In this document: positions 1,621 to 57,587 of the stretch, one piece after another | How the letters are laid out: each line of letters starts with the position of its first letter | How positions within the stretch are numbered: the first letter of the stretch is position 1 | Assembly: GCA_944325875.1 (NCBI GenBank) | Contig: CALVBU010000001.1 | Coordinates: forward strand, 186,001 to 250,000 | Direction: 5' to 3' | DNA length: 64,000 nucleotides | Source of the DNA: Candidatus Gastranaerophilales bacterium | Lineage (GTDB): Bacteria > Cyanobacteriota > Vampirovibrionia > Gastranaerophilales > Gastranaerophilaceae | The notes under the pieces: model-generated | The model's database searches: none | Told to the model about the DNA's origin: nothing | The model's input: the letters and a program-made list of their open reading frames with translations, nothing else | Program-made: the position numbers and the translations under genes

Positions 1621-2286
1621 CTATGACATAAGATCTGAAACATTCTGTAGAAAAGCTCTTGTAACAGCAATAGCATTTGAAATTCCATCTTGAGCTATTG
1701 CATGCCAGACATTATTATTTGTAGTTTTTGGTTTTGGTGTACACTCACTTAAGAACACAGCTTCTTCAAACAAATCAAGAAAATCACCCTTTGGAACCTC
1801 CAATTCTGGAGGTTGAGCGTTAGCGATAAACTGATCTTCATTAGCATAAACATAATTTTCAAATCTCTTATGCATAGACAAATCCCGCCATTTTTCTAAA
1901 ATATTTCCTCGTTCAACATGATTCGGTTGTGTAATATCCTGAAGAAAATGGAGTGCTCGACCAGCTTCAGATAAAGCTTTTTTCTCATCCAATTCAAGAT
2001 TTTTCTTAAATTTAAATAAATGCCCAGTATAAGAAGCTAAAGCATTATTTCTCCCAAAGAAGTCAAAAAAGCTTTCTCTTGGTCTAAATAGCTGTGGAGG
2101 ATAATAAAAATGATTATTTCCTTGAAACCCACGTTCATCAAAATCTGGTCTTGCAACCATTTTTACAATCAAATCTTTTGATTCTTTTAATTTTGGAAAC
2201 TCATCAACTAATTTTCCTGTAATTTTTTTATGAGTGTAATACCTCCACCCAAAATTTGTATTATTATTTATCTTATTTGTTTTCAT
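1621..2286 (-). CDS. Zinc-dependent phospholipase C-like protein
   Basis: The 221-residue protein carries what looks like the complete trinuclear zinc site of the bacterial phospholipase C/alpha-toxin fold: H19 (in YTH), D48 (PDFDE), H59 (NNHFYYP), then H113-x3-D117-x5-H123 (ALHFLQDITQPNH) and H139-x3-E143 (HKRFE). In characterised enzymes the ninth ligand is the amino group of the N-terminal tryptophan. Here that residue would be W14, directly after the leader MKTNKINNNTNFG, so removal of 13 residues would be needed for a classical site. There is no hydrophobic signal peptide. The likely role is hydrolysis of phospholipid head groups, or a related phosphoesterase. It follows clpB on the same strand, but a terminator separates them. 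The family call comes from motif spacing and the substrate is unknown. Confidence 0.75.
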   Translation of the reverse strand: MKTNKINNNTNFGWRYYTHKKITGKLVDEFPKLKESKDLIVKMVARPDFDERGFQGNNHFYYPPQLFRPRESFFDFFGRNNALASYTGHLFKFKKNLELDEKKALSEAGRALHFLQDITQPNHVERGNILEKWRDLSMHKRFENYVYANEDQFIANAQPPELEVPKGDFLDLFEEAVFLSECTPKPKTTNNNVWHAIAQDGISNAIAVTRAFLQNVSDLMS

Positions 2287-2346
2287 TACACATATCCTTT
2301 ACTAATATAAAGAATATCATAAATAAAACTCAGATTTAAGAAATAA

Positions 2347-2373
2347 AAAGGACCTCTTTTTTAGAGGTCCTTT
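2347..2373 (-). terminator. Rho-independent terminator of clpB
   Basis: Perfect 11-bp stem AAAGGACCTCT/AGAGGTCCTTT with a 5-nt loop. On the minus strand it is followed by TTATTT, just downstream of the clpB stop at 2380. Confidence 0.85.
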
Positions 2374-2379
2374 CTTCTA

Positions 2380-4980
2380 TCATGCTTTATGAAATACAAT
2401 TTCATCATTATCTACATCTATGACAAGCTTATCTCCTCTAAGGAATTTCTGAGATAGAATTTGTTTTGAAAGAGGGTTTTCAACCATCTGACGAATAACT
2501 CTTTTCAGAGGTCTTGCCCCGTATACAGGATTAAACCCTCTGGTAGCAAGTAATTCTTTAGCTTCTTGAGTAATTTCAAGCTCGATTTCTTGATCTTTCA
2601 ATAATCGACGTAAGTATTCCATTTGAATATCAACAATATTAGATAATTGTTCAAGAGTGAGTGCTCTAAAGAAAATAGTTTCATCAATTCTGTTTAAAAA
2701 TTCAGGTTTAAACCTGCTTCTTAAAACTTCTAAAACTTTTTCTTTAGTTGCCTCAAAGTTTGAAGTTGAGCCGATTGATTTTAGAGAGTCTTCAAGAATA
2801 ATATCAGAACCAATATTTGAAGTCATAATGATTAAAGTATTCTTAAAATCAACAGTTCTGCCTTTTGAATCAGTCAAACGGCCATCATCAAATATTTGAA
2901 GCATTATATTAAACACATCTGGGTGAGCTTTTTCTATTTCATCAAAAAGCACAACTGAATAAGGTTTGCGACGAACAGCTTCAGTTAATTGTCCACCTTC
3001 ATCATAACCGACATATCCCGGAGGTGCACCAACAAGTCTTGATACATTATGTTTTTCCATATATTCAGACATATCGATTCTGATTAGAGCATCTTCATCA
3101 TTGAACATAAACTCAGCCAATGACTTTGCAAGTTCGGTTTTACCAACCCCAGTAGGTCCAAGGAATAAGAAAGTACCTATAGGACGTTTAGGATCTTTTA
3201 ATCCTGAACGAGCACGACGAATAGCATCTGATACGGTTGTTACAGCTTCTTCTTGACCGACAAGACGTTTATGAAGAACATCTTCCATATTCAATAGCTT
3301 TTGAGTCTCACTTTCCACAAGCTTACTTACAGGAACTCCGGTCCATTTACTTACAACTTCTGCAATATCATCTTCATCAATTTGCTCTTTTAAAAGTCTG
3401 TTTGCAGATTTTTCTTGAGTTTGGCAAGCTTTAAGCTGTTTTTCCAATTCAAGAAGTTTTCCGTATTTTAACTCAGCAGCAGTCTGTAAATCTGTATTAC
3501 GTTCAGCTTCTTCAATTTTAGCTTTTACTTTTTCAATTTCTTCTTTAATACCAGCTTCCCCAACAATCGAAGCCTTTTCTGCTTCCCATTGAACTTTTAA
3601 TTTTGAGATTTTTTCTTCATAATCGTCAATTTGCTTAGTTAAATCGTCAATTTTGGCAATAGCCTCAGGGCTATCTTCTTTTTTCAAAGCTTCACGCTCA
3701 ATTTCAAGCTGAATTTTTTGACGCATTAATGTATCAATTTCTTCTGGCATAGAATCAATCTCAATTCTTAATGATGAAGCGGCTTCATCAATCAAGTCTA
3801 TAGCTTTATCAGGAAGAAATCTATCTGTAATATATCGATCAGAAAGCTTTGCTGCTGCAATTAATGCACTATCAAGTATTCTTATTCCATGGTGCACTTC
3901 ATATTTTTCCTTTAAGCCTCTCAAGATACTTATTGTATCTTCAACAGAAGGTTCACCAACTAATACTGGCTGAAATCTTCTTTCTAAAGCCGGATCTTTT
4001 TCGATATATTTTCTATATTCATTAATTGTTGTAGCACCGATTGTTCTTAAAACACCTCTTGCAAGCATTGGTTTTAGTAAGTTGCCAGCATCCATAGAGC
4101 CCTCGGTAGCACCTGCACCGACAACAGTATGAAGTTCATCGATAAACATTACTATTGAACCGTCAGAATCTTCAACTTCTTTCAATACTGCTTTTAAACG
4201 TTCTTCAAATTCACCTCTGTATTTTGCACCAGCAACCAAGGCGCCCATATCAAGCGCAACAAGTTTTACATTCTTTAGGCTTTCTGGGACATCACCACGA
4301 ACAATACGTTGGGCCAAACCTTCAACGATAGCGGTCTTTCCAACACCCGGTTCCCCTATTAAAACAGGGTTATTTTTAGTACGTCTATTTAATACTTGAA
4401 TAATACGACGAACTTCTTCATCACGTCCTATAACAGGATCAAGTTTCCCTTTTCTAGCTCTTTCTGTTAAATCTGTAGAGTATTTTTCAAGAGCTTTCAT
4501 ATTTTCTTCAGCATTTTTGTTATCCACTTTTTTATTCCCTCTTATTTTTTTCATTGCATTTAAAACTGATGTCGAACTAACTCCGGCTTCTCGCAAAACA
4601 TTCTGAATATTGCTATTATCAAGTAAAGTCATTGCAAGCAATAGAGATTCAACACCAATGTATTCATCCTTAAACTTTTCAGCTTCTTGTTTCGCGATAT
4701 CAAGCAATTCATAAGTTTTTTGAGACAAAAACAATTGTTGTGCATTTACTGGACCAGAAACCGTCGGAAAAGATTTCACTGTACCGACAATTTTATTGAT
4801 AAACCCTTGATTTAAAAGTTTTAACTCAGTCAAGTAATCTTTAATAATTCCGTTATCTTTAATCATTGCAAGCATTATATGTTCAGGCTGCAACTCAGAA
4901 TTTTTATACTCATTCATCAATGCACTTGAAGCAGATAAAATTTCCTGAGAATAATTTGTAAATTTGTTAAAATCAACCAT
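2380..4980 (-). CDS. clpB: Disaggregase ClpB (AAA+ chaperone)
   Basis: Hexameric ATPase that pulls polypeptides out of aggregates together with DnaK. Domain order: N-terminal Clp repeats (about residues 1-150), first AAA+ module with Walker [14 protein letters not shown] (about 200), a coiled-coil middle domain rich in Glu/Lys (about 400-530), second AAA+ module with [12 protein letters not shown] (about 600), and the C-terminal D2-small domain. I start at ATG 4978-4980 (MVDFNKF), because GGAG lies at the right distance. A start eight codons upstream has no properly spaced site. The 866-residue length is normal. A TTGAAA/TATAAA promoter lies upstream at 5030-5059. I see no CIRCE element. Confidence 0.97.
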
Positions 4981-24900: not shown

Positions 24901-25584
24901 TTACCAAGGATAATCATCTTTTATCTCCCATCCGTCAAGCATAATCAATGCTGCACAAAACTGACCTCTTCCACTTCTAGAACATGCATAACTACCTTTC
25001 ATCGCACTTTCTCTTGTCATATCGGTCATAGGCATATCAGCTTCTCCATACGAACCATATGGAACTAATTTTCTTTTATTATCTTTAGTTATAGAAAACC
25101 CAAAAAAATCACGACCTATTATATTGGGGCTTTTCATACCGTTTATATCAATAAAAATCGGTTTGGATTTATTATATACCCCTGCAATGGAACAATAAAA
25201 TAATGTACCATCCTTTAAAGACACAACCATAGCACTACCCGCCAATGGGTTAAAACTACTTTCAATACTTCCATTCGGTCTTTTATATTTGACCTCATTC
25301 ATAATATCCGAATACCTAATATTCAAAATATTTGGCATATATTTTTGCAAATATTTAGTAAAGAAATCTGCAGAATTAAGTGTAAAATCCCAATATTCAA
25401 TGGATCCATTATCTGCCTCAGACATTATAATAGCTTGAGAAAGATTATTATAAACCTTTTTTAATCGTTCTACAGTCTCCATTTTTTGATACTTCGCAAT
25501 TAATATAGGTAATGTCATTGCTGCAACTATACCGATTATACCTAAAGTAATTAAAACTTCCGCTAACGTGAATGCACGTTTCAT
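24901..25584 (-). CDS. Prepilin-like protein (module 4)
   Basis: 227 residues. The leader is MKRA then FTLAEVLITLG, with Ala before the cleavage site and Glu5. The mid-region contains EADNGSIEYWDF, the hallmark IDINGMKSPNIIGRDFF, and a C-terminus with paired cysteines ending CAALIMLDGWEIKDDYPW. It is the most complete example of the family's C-terminal pattern, shared with the pilins at 5094 and 30688. GGAGG precedes the ATG. It is divergent from the regulator at 25650. Its promoter (-10 25627-25632, -35 25650-25655) reaches into the regulator's start codon, so the two genes compete directly. It is a likely minor pilin. Confidence 0.9.
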   Translation of the reverse strand: MKRAFTLAEVLITLGIIGIVAAMTLPILIAKYQKMETVERLKKVYNNLSQAIIMSEADNGSIEYWDFTLNSADFFTKYLQKYMPNILNIRYSDIMNEVKYKRPNGSIESSFNPLAGSAMVVSLKDGTLFYCSIAGVYNKSKPIFIDINGMKSPNIIGRDFFGFSITKDNKRKLVPYGSYGEADMPMTDMTRESAMKGSYACSRSGRGQFCAALIMLDGWEIKDDYPW

Positions 25585-30662: not shown

Positions 30663-30689
30663 AAAAAGCTCCATTATGGAGCTTTTTTT
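30661..30689. terminator. Bidirectional terminator
   Basis: AAAAAAAGCTCC/GGAGCTTTTTTT stem with a 5-nt loop, between the convergent P-loop kinase gene and the pilin ending at 30688; it overlaps the pilin stop. Confidence 0.9.
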
Positions 30690-31392
30690 AGTAACTAACT
30701 TTATAAGGATAATCATCTGGAATTTTCCAACCATTATATTGAATTAAGGCGGTACAATATTGCTTTCCACGAGAGCCAGCACCTTGGCCATTGCAACCAT
30801 CTAATAAAGCTTGTCTGGTACCATCCCATTGCCATTTCCAGGGTTCAAAACCTTTATTATAATGATATAACCAGTATTGAATATCAGCTCCAGGCTCTGG
30901 ATTAAATGTAAATGAAAAAGAACAAATTCCATTCGTATTTGAATAATCAGAAGTATTTATACAACGTTCTAAGGCCCCAGGGTAAAAAATCCAATCTCTA
31001 GTATTTGTACTTACAGACCTCAAAGCACTGCCATCTGGGAAATACACAACAAAAGAACCATCAGAAAGAATTTTAGACTTAGTTATCTTCATATATGGAG
31101 CTATATATTTGTTAAACCATTTTTCTTGCTCAGAACTTCCAGGCACTGGATTTCCATCATCATCAAAAGCTGCACCAGCTAAATCTTGATACCAAATCTT
31201 TTTATCCCCATAATCAACTTCTGCCATTTTTACGGCTTGATTAATTGCAGAATAAAACTTCATCAATCTTGTCTCTACTACTCTATTATTATTTTTTTGT
31301 ATTAGCGTCGGCATTGTCATAGCTGCTACTATTCCTATTATGCCTAAAGTTATCAGCACTTCTGCTAAGGTAAAAGCGTTTTTCTTTTTCAT
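30688..31392 (-). CDS. Prepilin-like protein with long conserved leader, no adjacent regulator
   Basis: 234 residues. The leader MKKKNA precedes FTLAEVLITLG (Ala at -1, Glu5). It lacks the DxNGxKxPN hallmark and instead has SFTFNPEPGADIQYWLYHY. The end, CTALIQYNGWKIPDDYPY, matches the pilin at 24901. The ribosome site is CGGAGG (plus-strand 31397-31402). Unlike the regulator-paired pilins it follows a roughly 190-nt leader almost identical to that of the pilin at 51129, with a small ORF, a G tract and a CCTCCG element. It is probably a minor pilin under translational control. Confidence 0.88.
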   Translation of the reverse strand: MKKKNAFTLAEVLITLGIIGIVAAMTMPTLIQKNNNRVVETRLMKFYSAINQAVKMAEVDYGDKKIWYQDLAGAAFDDDGNPVPGSSEQEKWFNKYIAPYMKITKSKILSDGSFVVYFPDGSALRSVSTNTRDWIFYPGALERCINTSDYSNTNGICSFSFTFNPEPGADIQYWLYHYNKGFEPWKWQWDGTRQALLDGCNGQGAGSRGKQYCTALIQYNGWKIPDDYPYKVSY

Positions 31393-31590
31393 TTATCCTC
31401 CGTTTATATACTATTTCTAATTTTAACATTTTTCATACAAAAAATCACCGTGTCTATTGGCACGGCTTAATCTTTAGCTCTTTTCTTTCAATCGGAGGCC
31501 TAAGTCGGAAATGCTTATCTCAACTGTTAGTTGGTAGCCCCCCCCCCCGAAATTCTATCTATACTTATCTTTTGCATACATCCTCCTTCT
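31393..31590 (-). promoter_or_regulatory. Conserved pilin leader RNA (copy 1)
   Basis: Read on the minus strand: AAGGAGG, a small ORF (31527-31577) with 11 G residues (31538-31548), a conserved stretch containing CCTCCG (31493-31498), a hairpin CCGTG/CACGG (31448-31465), then CGGAGG (31397-31402) and the pilin ATG. CCTCCG is perfectly complementary to the pilin ribosome site and could hide it. The same order occurs at 52206-52405 with scattered substitutions. It matches no riboswitch class I know. Confidence 0.7.
31527..31577 (-). CDS. Leader peptide with poly-G tract (copy 1)
   Basis: ATG 31575-31577 follows AAGGAGG with a 4-nt gap and encodes MQKISIDRISGGGATN, 16 residues, ending at TAA inside the leader of the pilin at 30688. 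The three Gly codons come from 11 G residues. With one more G, or two fewer, the frame would run on to TAA at 31474-31476 and give a peptide of about 34 residues ending LRLKEKS. The copy at 52340 has the same design, and several differences between them are synonymous (AAG/AAA, AGA/AGG). Confidence 0.55.
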   Translation of the reverse strand: MQKISIDRISGGGATN

Positions 31591-31624
31591 TTTTTATTAT
31601 ATATTATTTCTGAAAAAATTTCAA

Positions 31625-31657
31625 TAAACAAGTCCATGGATTCCATGGACTTGTTTA
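31625..31657 (-). terminator. Terminator after the response regulator gene
   Basis: 15-bp perfect stem TAAACAAGTCCATGG/CCATGGACTTGTTTA with a 3-nt loop, a few bases past the stop codon. A T-rich stretch follows on the minus strand after ATTGAAA, so termination may be partly stem-driven. Confidence 0.7.
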
Positions 31658-31669
31658 TTAGATATTACA

Positions 31670-34944: not shown

Positions 34945-35604
34945 ATGACAAAAAGATTCGGTTTTACTTTGGCAGAAGTATTGATTACTTTGGGTATTAT
35001 CGGTGTTGTAGCTGCAATGACAATGCCTACATTGATGAACTCAACTAACGGTGCACAATACAAAACAGCTTACAAAAAAGCTTTATCTGTATTGTCTCAA
35101 GCTGTAGTTTTGAACGTTGCTCTTGATGACTATGATTTGTCTCAAACAACTTCTACAACTACTAATGATAACGCATCATTATACAACTTATTCAACAACC
35201 GTATGAATGTTGTTAAAACTGACGGTAATGCTTATACCGCAACTCCAACAACTGGTAATGTAAAATTTGGTGATAAAACATCAAACTATACATTGTACTT
35301 CAATGATGGTATCACATTTACATTCCCTAAAAATGCATCAAATTGTACTGAAGGTAACGCAACAACAAATGCTGCTGATAACGGAACAGATGGTAATCCT
35401 GGCTACTGCTATGGTGTAATTGATGTTAACGGTGAAAAGAACCCTAACAAACTTGTTAACTGCGACGGTAAAGCTTGGAACGCAGGTGGAGAAGATTGTA
35501 AGGTAACTAACCCTACAGATATTTATCCTGTAATTATGTATGACCAAACAGTTCTTCCAGCAACTAGAGCTGCTGAAGCTGTTCTTTACGGTGCAGGTAA
35601 ATAG
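34945..35604 (+). CDS. Probable major type IV pilin
   Basis: 219 residues. The leader MTKRFG precedes FTLAEVLITLG, with the classical Gly at -1 and Glu5. The rest is rich in Thr, Asn and Ala (SQTTSTTTNDNASLY) and has the hallmark IDVNGEKNPNK and three cysteines, two in the DGNPGYCYG and VNCDGK segments. The codon pattern (TTG, GCT, AAC, GAC, repeated ACT) differs from the other pilins and resembles pnp, suggesting high expression. A consensus promoter, no divergent regulator and a strong terminator support a role as the main structural subunit. Confidence 0.85.
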   Translation: MTKRFGFTLAEVLITLGIIGVVAAMTMPTLMNSTNGAQYKTAYKKALSVLSQAVVLNVALDDYDLSQTTSTTTNDNASLYNLFNNRMNVVKTDGNAYTATPTTGNVKFGDKTSNYTLYFNDGITFTFPKNASNCTEGNATTNAADNGTDGNPGYCYGVIDVNGEKNPNKLVNCDGKAWNAGGEDCKVTNPTDIYPVIMYDQTVLPATRAAEAVLYGAGK

Positions 35605-45115: not shown

Positions 45116-45814
45116 ATGAACAGACTAGCTTTTACACTAGCAGAAGTATTAATAACCTTAGGAATAATCGGAATAATCGCTGCAATGACTATACCTTCTC
45201 TAATACAGAAGAAAACTAACAGAGAACTTCAAACAGCTTTGCAAAAAAACTATTCGGTACTTCAATCGGCCTTAGAAAAAGCTAGCTACGATTATGGTGA
45301 AACTATAAAACCTGCAGCTTTTGTAAAAGGAGGACTGCTTAAACCCGTTCTAATTAAATATCTAAAATCTGTAAAAGACAGTGAATCCTCTAATTGTATT
45401 CAAAATGGTAGTGAAACTAATGAAAGCGGCGAGATTGAAAAGTACATTATAAAAAATTATAAAACATATAATAAAAAACAAACAGTACAAACATGGTATT
45501 TTGACGATGGGCAATTTATGCTAAATGATGGATCTTTATACATGATAGAAAATCAAACACAAACATCAGCCCAAATTCCACCAATATACATTACAATAGA
45601 TGTAAACGGAATGGACAAAAAACCTAATTTGTGGGGACATGATTTATTTACATTCCAAATTATAGAAAATGGCAAACTCTTACCCATGGGAGCAGATGGA
45701 ACTGATTACGATTCAAATTCTTACTGTTCAGCTACATCAACTAATAAATTGAATGGCATAGGATGCACTTATAAAGCTTTAACAGACAAAGAATACTGGA
45801 AAAATCTTCCATAA
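45116..45814 (+). CDS. Prepilin-like protein (module 5)
   Basis: 232 residues. The leader MNRLA precedes FTLAEVLITLG (Ala at -1, Glu5). The variable middle includes YNKKQTVQTWYFDDGQFMLN. The hallmark IDVNGMDKKPNLWGHDLFTF has an extra residue relative to paralogues. The end is NGIGCTYKALTDKEYWKNLP. The ATG has TATGGAG upstream. Predicted minor pilin, controlled by the divergent regulator at 44813. A strong terminator follows, separating it from the convergent phosphohexomutase. Confidence 0.88.
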   Translation: MNRLAFTLAEVLITLGIIGIIAAMTIPSLIQKKTNRELQTALQKNYSVLQSALEKASYDYGETIKPAAFVKGGLLKPVLIKYLKSVKDSESSNCIQNGSETNESGEIEKYIIKNYKTYNKKQTVQTWYFDDGQFMLNDGSLYMIENQTQTSAQIPPIYITIDVNGMDKKPNLWGHDLFTFQIIENGKLLPMGADGTDYDSNSYCSATSTNKLNGIGCTYKALTDKEYWKNLP

Positions 45815-51128: not shown

Positions 51129-52205
51129 TTAATCACTCAGACAAATCGCCTGTATACTACTACTGCCACGATAGGAGCTCACGCCGAGGGCTGTGTAAGT
51201 AGGTGTAAAGAAACGGGAGTTTGCACCAGACCCATGGCTCGAGTAAGACTCTTCATTCGACCATAACTGGAAGCTGGGTTCCGGAAGACCTAATAAGGAT
51301 GCGGTACCTGCTTCGTACGTTAAGTTGGTAGCTCCACCGCCTGAACTTATGTTTGGGTTTCCCTTGTATATTGCACTAGCTATCTTTGCAAGGTCTGCGG
51401 GTGTTGTAAGGTTATTTACTCCACCACACTGTTTCACAGCACCTGCCCAATAATCATTAGGAATTACACATGCTGTTATTCCAAGGTTACCTTTTTGGGC
51501 TTCACATTCTGCTTTCGTTATTGGGGTTGGCGTAAATGGGGTACCGAAACATCTTCCACTATCCAGTTCTATTGCACAACTTGAACCTAAGCCATTTGCA
51601 TTGAATAGAGCTACATCCTCATTTTGTTTATTCGGTTTCTTACTTCCGTTTATTTCAAATACTGCTGCTACACAATTTGATGTCGCATTTGATACTGGTT
51701 TGTTGTCCTCTGTTGACCAGCCATAACTTTTTACTGGGTCTAACACTTCACATTTGGTATTGTATGATAGTATCATTGGCGTTCCGTCTGCTGTTATTAT
51801 ACCTACATTCGGACTACTGTAATCTGCAGTATCGCTGTTTTTCATTTGAAAATTCTTACCTGTCTGGATTTTTTCTACTTCATATTCTTTACCGTCTAGT
51901 AGTGTTATTGTATCATAAGGCCAGCACTCTCTTAGTTTGCTTGATGGACATACTTTTGCGATTTTCAAATGCTTTTGTAATTCTGCCACAAATGCTGCTG
52001 TACTGTCATAAGGCCCAATTAACCCCAGCGTTGCCATCTTTTCCGTGGCTTTCGTAAATTTGTACTTGACTGTTCGTATCTGTTCTGCTCGTACTTTCTT
52101 GTTTATAGCCTGATTTAATACAGGTAGTGTTATCGCTGCTACCACTCCAATTACTCCTAATGTGATTAGCACTTCTGCCAATGTAAAAGCATTTTTCTTT
52201 TTCAT
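51129..52205 (-). CDS. Prepilin-like protein with C-terminal C-type-lectin-like (DGR-target-like) domain
   Basis: 358 residues, the longest pilin here. The leader MKKKNA precedes FTLAEVLITLG (Ala at -1, Glu5). The pilin body has the hallmark FEINGSKKPNKQNEDVALF (about 183-201). An added domain (about 231-358) reads CVIPNDYWAGAVKQC, NLTTPADLAKIASAIY, FQLWSNEES and IQAICLSD, the skeleton of formylglycine-enzyme/C-type-lectin folds used by diversity-generating retroelements. The last ~35 codons before IQAIC are dominated by NNY triplets with many G/C first and second bases (CTC, GGC, AGC, CGT), unlike the AT-rich genome. The whole gene looks more GC-rich than its neighbours. It shares its leader with the pilin at 30688. 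Confidence 0.85.
   Translation of the reverse strand: MKKKNAFTLAEVLITLGVIGVVAAITLPVLNQAINKKVRAEQIRTVKYKFTKATEKMATLGLIGPYDSTAAFVAELQKHLKIAKVCPSSKLRECWPYDTITLLDGKEYEVEKIQTGKNFQMKNSDTADYSSPNVGIITADGTPMILSYNTKCEVLDPVKSYGWSTEDNKPVSNATSNCVAAVFEINGSKKPNKQNEDVALFNANGLGSSCAIELDSGRCFGTPFTPTPITKAECEAQKGNLGITACVIPNDYWAGAVKQCGGVNNLTTPADLAKIASAIYKGNPNISSGGGATNLTYEAGTASLLGLPEPSFQLWSNEESYSSHGSGANSRFFTPTYTALGVSSYRGSSSIQAICLSD
51150..51265 (-). other. Candidate variable repeat (VR) of a diversity-generating retroelement
   Basis: Codons for residues 315-350 of the pilin read mostly as NNC or NNT with mixed first two bases (25 of about 33 codons, for example TCT, TAC, AGC, CAT, GGT, CGT, CTC, GGC, TCC). That is what adenine-specific mutagenesis of AAY codons in a template repeat would produce. 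The stretch ends in a conserved IQAICL strand, as known targets do. No template repeat or reverse transcriptase is in the window. Confidence 0.5.
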
Positions 52206-52405
52206 TTAGTCCTCCGTTAATTTTTATTATCTGTTTCTCAAAAATTTTGCATCACAAATTGCCGTGTCTTTTGGCACGGCTTACTTTTTAGTTCTTTTTT
52301 TCAATCGGAGGCCTAAGTCAGAAATGCTTGACTCAACTGTTAGTCGGTAGCCCCCCCCCCCGAAATCCTATCTATACTTGATTTTTGCATATTAACCTCC
52401 TAATT
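52206..52405 (-). promoter_or_regulatory. Conserved pilin leader RNA (copy 2)
   Basis: Same order as the leader at 31393: AGGAGG, small ORF with 11 G residues (52351-52361), CCTCCG element (plus-strand CGGAGG 52306-52311), hairpin GCCGTG/CACGGC (52261-52280), pilin ribosome site CGGAGG (plus-strand CCTCCG 52211-52216), ATG. The hairpin has one more pair than in copy 1. The rest of this 380-bp gap, to 52585, holds the transketolase promoter. Confidence 0.7.
52340..52390 (-). CDS. Leader peptide with poly-G tract (copy 2)
   Basis: ATG 52388-52390, five bases after GGAGG, encodes MQKSSIDRISGGGATD, 16 residues, then TAA. It differs from copy 1 at two residues. Adding one G to the tract would extend the frame to TAA at 52281-52283 (36 residues, ending LRLKKRTKK), reading across the CCTCCG element and stopping at the foot of the GCCGTG hairpin. 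Confidence 0.55.
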   Translation of the reverse strand: MQKSSIDRISGGGATD

Positions 52406-56933: not shown

Positions 56934-57587
56934 TTAAAATTTAAGCGGATAATCTTTTGGAGGTTTAAAATTATTATCTAATAATAATTGAATACAAGCT
57001 TGGTCAGAATGGTTCTTACATTGAGCAATTATATTTGCTCGGTTCGGAGCTTTCAAAGGGACCAAATCATGTATAAGAGTTTTATATACAGCATTTCCAT
57101 AATTTTTCACATATGGATAGTAATGTATTGCAAAACGGTCTATACCACCAAGATTTGGTCCTTTTTCTCCATTTAAATCAAATAAATATACAACATAAGC
57201 TGTATTTATTATTTGTACTGCAATATAAGAAGAATCAGGAAATAATAATCGGAAGGCATGCGGCCCTATACCCCATTTTGCCTGATACTTAACCATATTT
57301 GGATTTAGCCCTCCAAACTGAATCATTTGATTAATAAAACACTTAGACATATTATCGCCTCCTGCAGGAAGAGAGTGACACAAAGCATAAGTATCTGGAA
57401 TTGAACCTGTTTCAATATGAATATTTTGCAACATACGTTCCAAAAATGCCACCTGCTTTTTTAGTTTGTTCATGTTAACAACTTCATTATATTTAGACAA
57501 AGACATAGGTATTGTTAAAGCTGCAACAACCCCAATTATACCCAATGTAATCAATACTTCTGCCAATGTAAAAGCTAAATGTTTCAT
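56934..57587 (-). CDS. Prepilin-like protein (module 6)
   Basis: 217 residues. The leader MKHLA precedes FTLAEVLITLG (Ala at -1, Glu5). The hallmark is FDLNGEKGPNLGGIDRFAI. The cysteine pair (AQCKNHSDQACIQ) and ending NNFKPPKDYPLKF follow the C-terminal pattern of the 24901 paralogue. AAAGGATG lies before the ATG. Its own promoter is TTGAAA-17-TATAAT. Predicted minor pilin under the divergent regulator at 57714. The gene ends 7 bp from the isochorismatase-family stop, with no terminator. Confidence 0.88.
   Translation of the reverse strand: MKHLAFTLAEVLITLGIIGVVAALTIPMSLSKYNEVVNMNKLKKQVAFLERMLQNIHIETGSIPDTYALCHSLPAGGDNMSKCFINQMIQFGGLNPNMVKYQAKWGIGPHAFRLLFPDSSYIAVQIINTAYVVYLFDLNGEKGPNLGGIDRFAIHYYPYVKNYGNAVYKTLIHDLVPLKAPNRANIIAQCKNHSDQACIQLLLDNNFKPPKDYPLKF

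Follow-up and report, generated by a model that had tools for sequence, protein, structure and literature searches.

Phase-variable tracts are known in genes, in promoters and in a few mRNA leaders. In leader-peptide attenuators, which may be translational (ermC-type) or transcriptional (trp-type), the position of a ribosome on a short open reading frame (ORF) picks the RNA structure that hides a Shine-Dalgarno sequence (SD) or terminates transcription. In Bifidobacterium breve, a G10-G12 tract sets the reading frame of the pilus at the sortase-pilus loci bbr_0113 and bbr_1889; the annotated state is OFF, omission of one base turns it ON, and a culture started from a single colony contains both G11 and G12 (PMC9187656). 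The length of a G run in the 5′ UTR of Mycobacterium tuberculosis espR alters how the ribosome-site region folds, and with it translation (PMC11898584). The tlpB leader of Helicobacter pylori contains a variable G repeat that pairs with a C/U-rich RNA, the small RNA RepG (PMC8295292).

We describe here a leader found in two copies in a 64,000-nt stretch (hereafter the window) of a Gastranaerophilales genome, and in many more copies across that genome, which shares features with each of these systems. As in B. breve, a G tract in a gut commensal would control a pilus by reading frame, and the B. breve arrangement resembles a class of pilin genes in the present genus that have the tract inside the gene. 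The B. breve switch differs in that it occupies two loci per strain, has its tract in the first pilus gene, and serves sortase pili rather than type-IV-like pilins. It also lacks three elements of the leader class described here: a leader ORF, and an anti-SD and a terminator-like hairpin separating the tract from the pilin. The espR leader is similar in that G-run length in an mRNA leader affects translation through the fold at the ribosome site, but its run is 7G at the transcript start of a single locus, has no leader ORF, and acts by fold and not by reading frame. The tlpB leader likewise has a variable G repeat acting through pairing with C/U-rich RNA; its partner, however, is a trans-encoded small RNA, and its effect is graded, independent of frame and exerted without a leader ORF. 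As in the ermC and trp attenuators, the position of a ribosome on a leader ORF would choose between RNA structures, although the input to those attenuators is ligand-caused stalling and here would be a heritable frame set by DNA slippage.

Copy 1 of the leader lies on the minus strand, upstream of a type-IV-pilin-like gene (30688..31392, ATG at 31392) with profile matches to N_methyl (PF07963) and DUF6613 (PF20318). The prepilin cleavage/methylation motif is present in this gene (PF07963, 27.6 bits with a cut-off of 21.2; TIGR02532, 22.1 with a cut-off of 16.3). The leader is directly preceded by a predicted sigma-70-like promoter, TTGAAA-17-TATAAT (31596..31624, minus strand, 11/12 matches in a scan), which places the predicted transcription start at ~31590, just 5′ of the leader-ORF ribosome site AAGGAGG (31582..31588). 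The 16-codon leader ORF, MQKISIDRISGGGATN (31527..31577; ATG at 31577, TAA at 31529-31527), contains a tract of 11 G residues (31538..31548). The sequence CCTCCG, which we term the anti-SD, lies 39 nt 3′ of the tract (31493..31498), and is followed by a hairpin, HP1, with the stem GCCGTG-CCAATAGA-CACGGT (31447..31466) and the T-rich tail GATTTTTT. The pilin ribosome site CGGAGG (31397..31402) is the exact complement of CCTCCG. Re-reading of the sequence thus found every element, in its order on the minus strand, where the first-pass annotation had placed it, the exact complementarity included. We denote the reading frame at 11 G as S, that at 12 or 9 G as S+1, and that at 10 or 13 G as S-1. 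As had also been claimed, the copy 1 ORF ends before CCTCCG with 11 G and crosses it with 12 or 9 G, then reaching a stop codon at 31476-31474, 10-11 nt 5′ of the hairpin. No Rfam family matched the window above its gathering score. The response-regulator gene upstream has a long inverted-repeat terminator (31622-31660), which ends only ~20 nt ahead of the -10 box of the leader.

Copy 2 occupies 52400-52206, also on the minus strand, with the leader ORF MQKSSIDRISGGGATD at 52340..52390, a G11 tract at 52351..52361, the anti-SD CCTCCG at 52306..52311 and the pilin ribosome site CGGAGG at 52211..52216. The gene behind it (51129..52205, minus strand) is again pilin-like, with a profile match to N_methyl PF07963. 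Four further pilins in the window are without the leader (24901-25584, 34945-35604, 45116-45814 and 56934-57587).

Our preferred reading, which we regard as probable, is that a slippage-driven contingency switch has been moved into the leader ORF and is read out by a double lock in the RNA, with 11G and 10G as OFF states and 12G and 9G as ON states. Replication slippage would alter the leader tract by one G. With 11 G (frame S) or 10 G, ribosomes would halt before CCTCCG. The pilin SD would then be paired to the anti-SD, transcription could end at the hairpin, and the pilin would be OFF. With 12 or 9 G (S+1), ribosomes would traverse CCTCCG up to or through the hairpin, which would free the pilin SD, block the terminator and turn the pilin ON. 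The tract is a homopolymer long enough to slip and is placed so that its length changes the frame; the predicted effect on expression is as modelled below.

The leader is a repeated element. Runs of nine or more G are expected 0.02 times per window by chance, and a BLAST search of the leader against the whole genome returned 39 copies of ~200 nt (E 1e-104 to 1e-18); on both counts, its double occurrence in the window is not due to chance. All 39 lie directly 5′ of type-IV-pilin-like genes, whose start is ~145 nt past the tract and whose products begin like MKKRNAFTLAEVLITLGIIGIVAAMT. The genome (2.2 Mb) contains 111 matches to the N_methyl pilin motif, and about one third of these carry the leader. 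A leader-pattern search of 39 related genomes found the leader to be abundant only in a second species of the genus (G012), with ~56 copies. One stray copy was present in G006 (contig C43; L040, L105), where it has a G13 tract, lies on a 7.5-kb contig and is the only leader-pilin copy in an otherwise leaderless species, as might result from transfer or mis-binning. A survey of 383 genomes of the order turned up no additional species with the leader in number, the few other matches inspected being unlike it, and a scan of viral contigs for the leader gave no matches. In total 95 copies were collected, the G012 copies by their G-run pattern and the 39 by BLAST; 91 have a parsed pilin, and 88 of these have CCTCCG at exactly +39. 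TATAAT or a near match stands 5′ of 86 of the 91. A divergent leader in the original genome (MQKLDLTTVFGGGVTLI; L207, C9:60184) has a G10 tract and a similar hairpin before its pilin, and is without CCTCCG.

Among the copies of the original genome, median identity is 78% for the leaders and 28% for the pilins beyond residue 40, and the two sets of distances are uncorrelated (Mantel rho 0.06, p 0.22). The leader thus remains conserved where the pilins have diverged, which indicates that it is under its own constraint or is homogenised. A mobile or recombining cassette tied to pilin type was considered and set aside on the same Mantel result, which fits constraint on the leader or gene conversion.

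The tract is uninterrupted in all 95 copies, at G10-G13, with 11 in most and 10, 12 or 13 in the others. GGG codons could drift, and no interrupted tract was seen; as the G012 set was picked by its G run, this is a clean test for the 39 BLAST-derived copies alone. By frame, the 91 copies comprise 82 in S, four in S+1 (all 12G: L002, the second copy at L007, L031 and L037) and five in S-1 (10G or 13G). So many in S would be expected with a chance of 2e-29 if the three frames were equal. The leader-ORF SD and start codon are in frame S in essentially all copies, with GGAGG in 81 of 91, and the S-frame product ends in SGGGA, then T or A, then N, D or S, its stop lying 8 nt past the tract in 86 of 91. 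Two copies (L034 and L093) have lost one base just upstream and gained a twelfth G in compensation, thereby retaining frame S despite the change in length. The close paralogues L031 and L032 are 92% identical and have G12 and G11 tracts, respectively; nearest-neighbour evidence for slippage of this kind comes from only a few pairs. An attenuator responding at the GGG codons to starvation or a missing tRNA was considered. The genome has tRNA-Gly genes with CCC, TCC and GCC anticodons; the CCC gene makes the GGG codons readable, and a decoding gap is unlikely.

The arrangement downstream of the tract is as rigid as the frame. In 88 of 91 copies, CCTCCG follows the tract at exactly 39 nt, without an indel in that interval. 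The S+1 frame crosses it in 86 of the 88, leaving two closed copies compared with an expected 7.4 +/- 1.5 from column shuffles (minimum 3 in 500). In the two exceptions (L039 and L074), it is the S-1 frame that reads on toward the pilin. The 10G frame ends before the anti-SD in 77 of 88 copies, mostly at +15. A functional protein encoded by the S+1 extension was rejected as a candidate, since its variable columns have no third-position excess (column counts by eye) and its stop position is not fixed. The base 5′ of GGAGG distinguishes the two ribosome sites: at the pilin SD it is C in 70, T in 14 and A in 4 copies (n = 88), compared with A in 72, T in 8 and C in 1 at the leader SD (n = 81), which is without a pairing partner. 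C or T is thus a property of the pilin SD only (Fisher p below 1e-28, the copies not being independent). Opposite the invariant G of CCTCCG, this C/T variation keeps a pair or wobble in 84 of 88 copies. Variation between SD and anti-SD is one-sided only, with no double compensatory change among the 88. Across copies, the leader ORF is thus conserved together with the tract, the anti-SD and the pilin SD as one unit.

Stem positions of HP1 are paired in 85-88 of 88 copies, and wobble changes preserve pairing. At least five T residues occur in the 8 nt after the hairpin in 88 of 88 copies, compared with 13% of shuffles, but this U-rich tail begins only 2-3 nt past the stem. Judged by these sequence features, an element earlier read as a plain hairpin is terminator-like in all 88 copies, and attenuation of transcription may therefore act alongside hiding of the SD. 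The S+1 stops fall 10-11 nt 5′ of the hairpin (35 copies) or 18-25 nt past its 5′ end (40 copies), positions from which an S+1 ribosome would cover or disrupt the hairpin and an S ribosome would not. Folding was then modelled with a ribosome placed at each stop and taken to cover 13 nt, using the mRNA 3′ of it. Under this energy model, exposing the pilin GGAGG costs on average 7.4 kcal/mol in frame S and 6.7 in S-1, but 1.2 in S+1. In controls, masking the anti-SD lowers the S value to 1.6, and shuffled leaders give 2.4. The model thus predicts a hidden pilin SD at 11G or 10G and an exposed one at 12G. Together with the frame analysis, this supports 12G and 9G as the ON lengths in the predicted readout.

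G tracts of 9-17 residues also occur within the ORFs of pilin and surface genes. At four loci in the original genome (L202, L204, L205 and L206), the tract lies within the 5′ end of the pilin ORF, and all four are out of frame at their current length. The genus sample yielded 88 pilins with an in-gene tract, located between a start peptide of 8-12 residues and FTLAEVLITLG; by frame, 85 are OFF and three ON, and 71 of the 85 are exactly one G too long. A Stealth-like surface polysaccharide gene (IDIVYLWVDGNDP; L203, C3:111733, 2230-3207) has a G11/G12 tract that is out of frame in the original genome and in G012 (L323) and in frame in G011 (L349), and appears from its sequence to be a separate contingency locus. 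Slippage-type switching is plausible because tracts of this kind set the frame by their length within pilin ORFs of the genus and within a polysaccharide-type gene. By analogy with B. breve, we infer that slippage would also occur in living populations. Across the family, 93 of the 117 genomes sampled carry runs of 10 or more G, some of them over 100 such runs. In two genomes of another genus (G125 and G285; L168 and L169), the tract close to the start of pilin genes is C9 instead of a G run, which looks like this kind of switch on the opposite strand.

Among the alternatives, a fixed RNA element would dispense with slippage. The G11 tract would pair with CCTCC as an anti-anti-SD, or form a G-quadruplex, and translation or arrest on the leader would control all pilins jointly as an ordinary attenuator. 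The length of 11 in most of the 95 copies is as this reading expects, and in the consensus fold all 88 copies have the tract base-paired with CCTCC. In the modelled free RNA without ribosomes, moreover, the pilin SD is only half closed, with an opening cost of 3.4 kcal/mol that rises to 5.9 when the tract is masked, because the G run itself can pair with CCTCC. Against it stand the existence of copies with 10, 12 and 13 G, the preservation of frame at length 12 in L034 and L093, and the in-gene tracts, which have no CCTCC and for which frame alone matters. We consider this reading unlikely. The same observations bear on the first-pass annotation, which had proposed that tract length toggles whether the pilin start is hidden or exposed and had named a fixed tract as counting against this. 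The conserved unit, the S+1 crossing and the folding favour the toggle; the predominance of 11 G weighs against it on those terms, but the frame-compensated 12G copies indicate that the tract is not simply fixed at one length. A trans-acting C/U-rich small RNA with the G tract as its chief target has a precedent in the variable G repeat bound by RepG in the tlpB leader (PMC8295292); it leaves the conserved frame of the mini-ORF unexplained, and we give it very little credence.

Programmed slippage of RNA polymerase or of the ribosome on G11 would shift the frame in a constant fraction of events, giving low, graded expression from unchanged DNA. The concentration of leader copies in S would suit it, as would the one-G excess in the in-gene class (p 1e-10 against 1/2) and the stop that follows within 0-5 codons of the run in 75 of 88 in-gene loci. 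True length variants exist, however, ON ones included, and the shift needed in the leader class is opposite in sign to that of the in-gene class, so that we rate programmed slippage somewhat below the fixed element. The sign is awkward more generally: OFF loci of the in-gene class usually sit at ON+1, those of the leader class would sit at ON-1, hence a single rule fails to explain both, and S is preferred over S-1 though both are predicted to be OFF. A stop right behind the tract may have a use of its own; alternatively, programmed slippage may contribute low expression. On a further reading, the leader class would be ON at 10G or 13G, like the in-gene class, with 12G as just one more OFF state. 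In-gene paralogues are usually ON at 10G, and the 10G frame leads toward the pilin in L039 and L074 and is fused with it in L056. Most 10G frames nevertheless end before the anti-SD, with the modelled SD closed at the cost given above for S-1, and L318 is fused to its pilin in the 12G frame; we judge this reading improbable.

The preferred reading, with ON at 12G and 9G, also suggests a history. In L056 and L318 the pilin has an SD and ATG close by, but one frame still joins it to the mini-ORF, and on this basis these loci appear to be intermediates between the in-gene and leader classes. Plausibly, the linker of an in-gene switch acquired an internal start, and the anti-SD later restored control by frame. 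It is an even question whether the whole sequence of events holds, that is, whether the contingency tract moved from the pilin coding sequence to a leader cassette whose reading frame runs a two-lock attenuator, and whether this cassette then spread before ~40-56 pilins per genome, nearly all silent and each switchable by one slipped base. With ~90% of copies predicted to be OFF, a cell would display only a few pilins of a large repertoire, and these would change at random. If this is correct, the genome holds more than a hundred pilin-like genes to be worn in varying combinations, many of them switched independently by a single base, and offers a ready test case for the interplay of slippage, attenuation and surface variation.

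On the claim that the combination of homopolymer, leader ORF and anti-SD seems new, the literature search returned pilus switches with in-gene tracts, a homopolymer that alters the fold of an mRNA leader and a G repeat targeted by a small RNA. None of these has a leader ORF whose frame operates an anti-SD, and no such arrangement repeated ahead of dozens of unrelated pilins in one genome came up; as the search covered open-access papers only, it is weak evidence of novelty. For annotation and consensus assembly the loci carry a warning, as genes of the leader class would be called constitutively present and those of the in-gene class broken. In one related genome (G009), at least 15 contigs start within ~130 bases of a G tract, for which mixed tract lengths, repeats or sequencing drop-out are each a possible cause.
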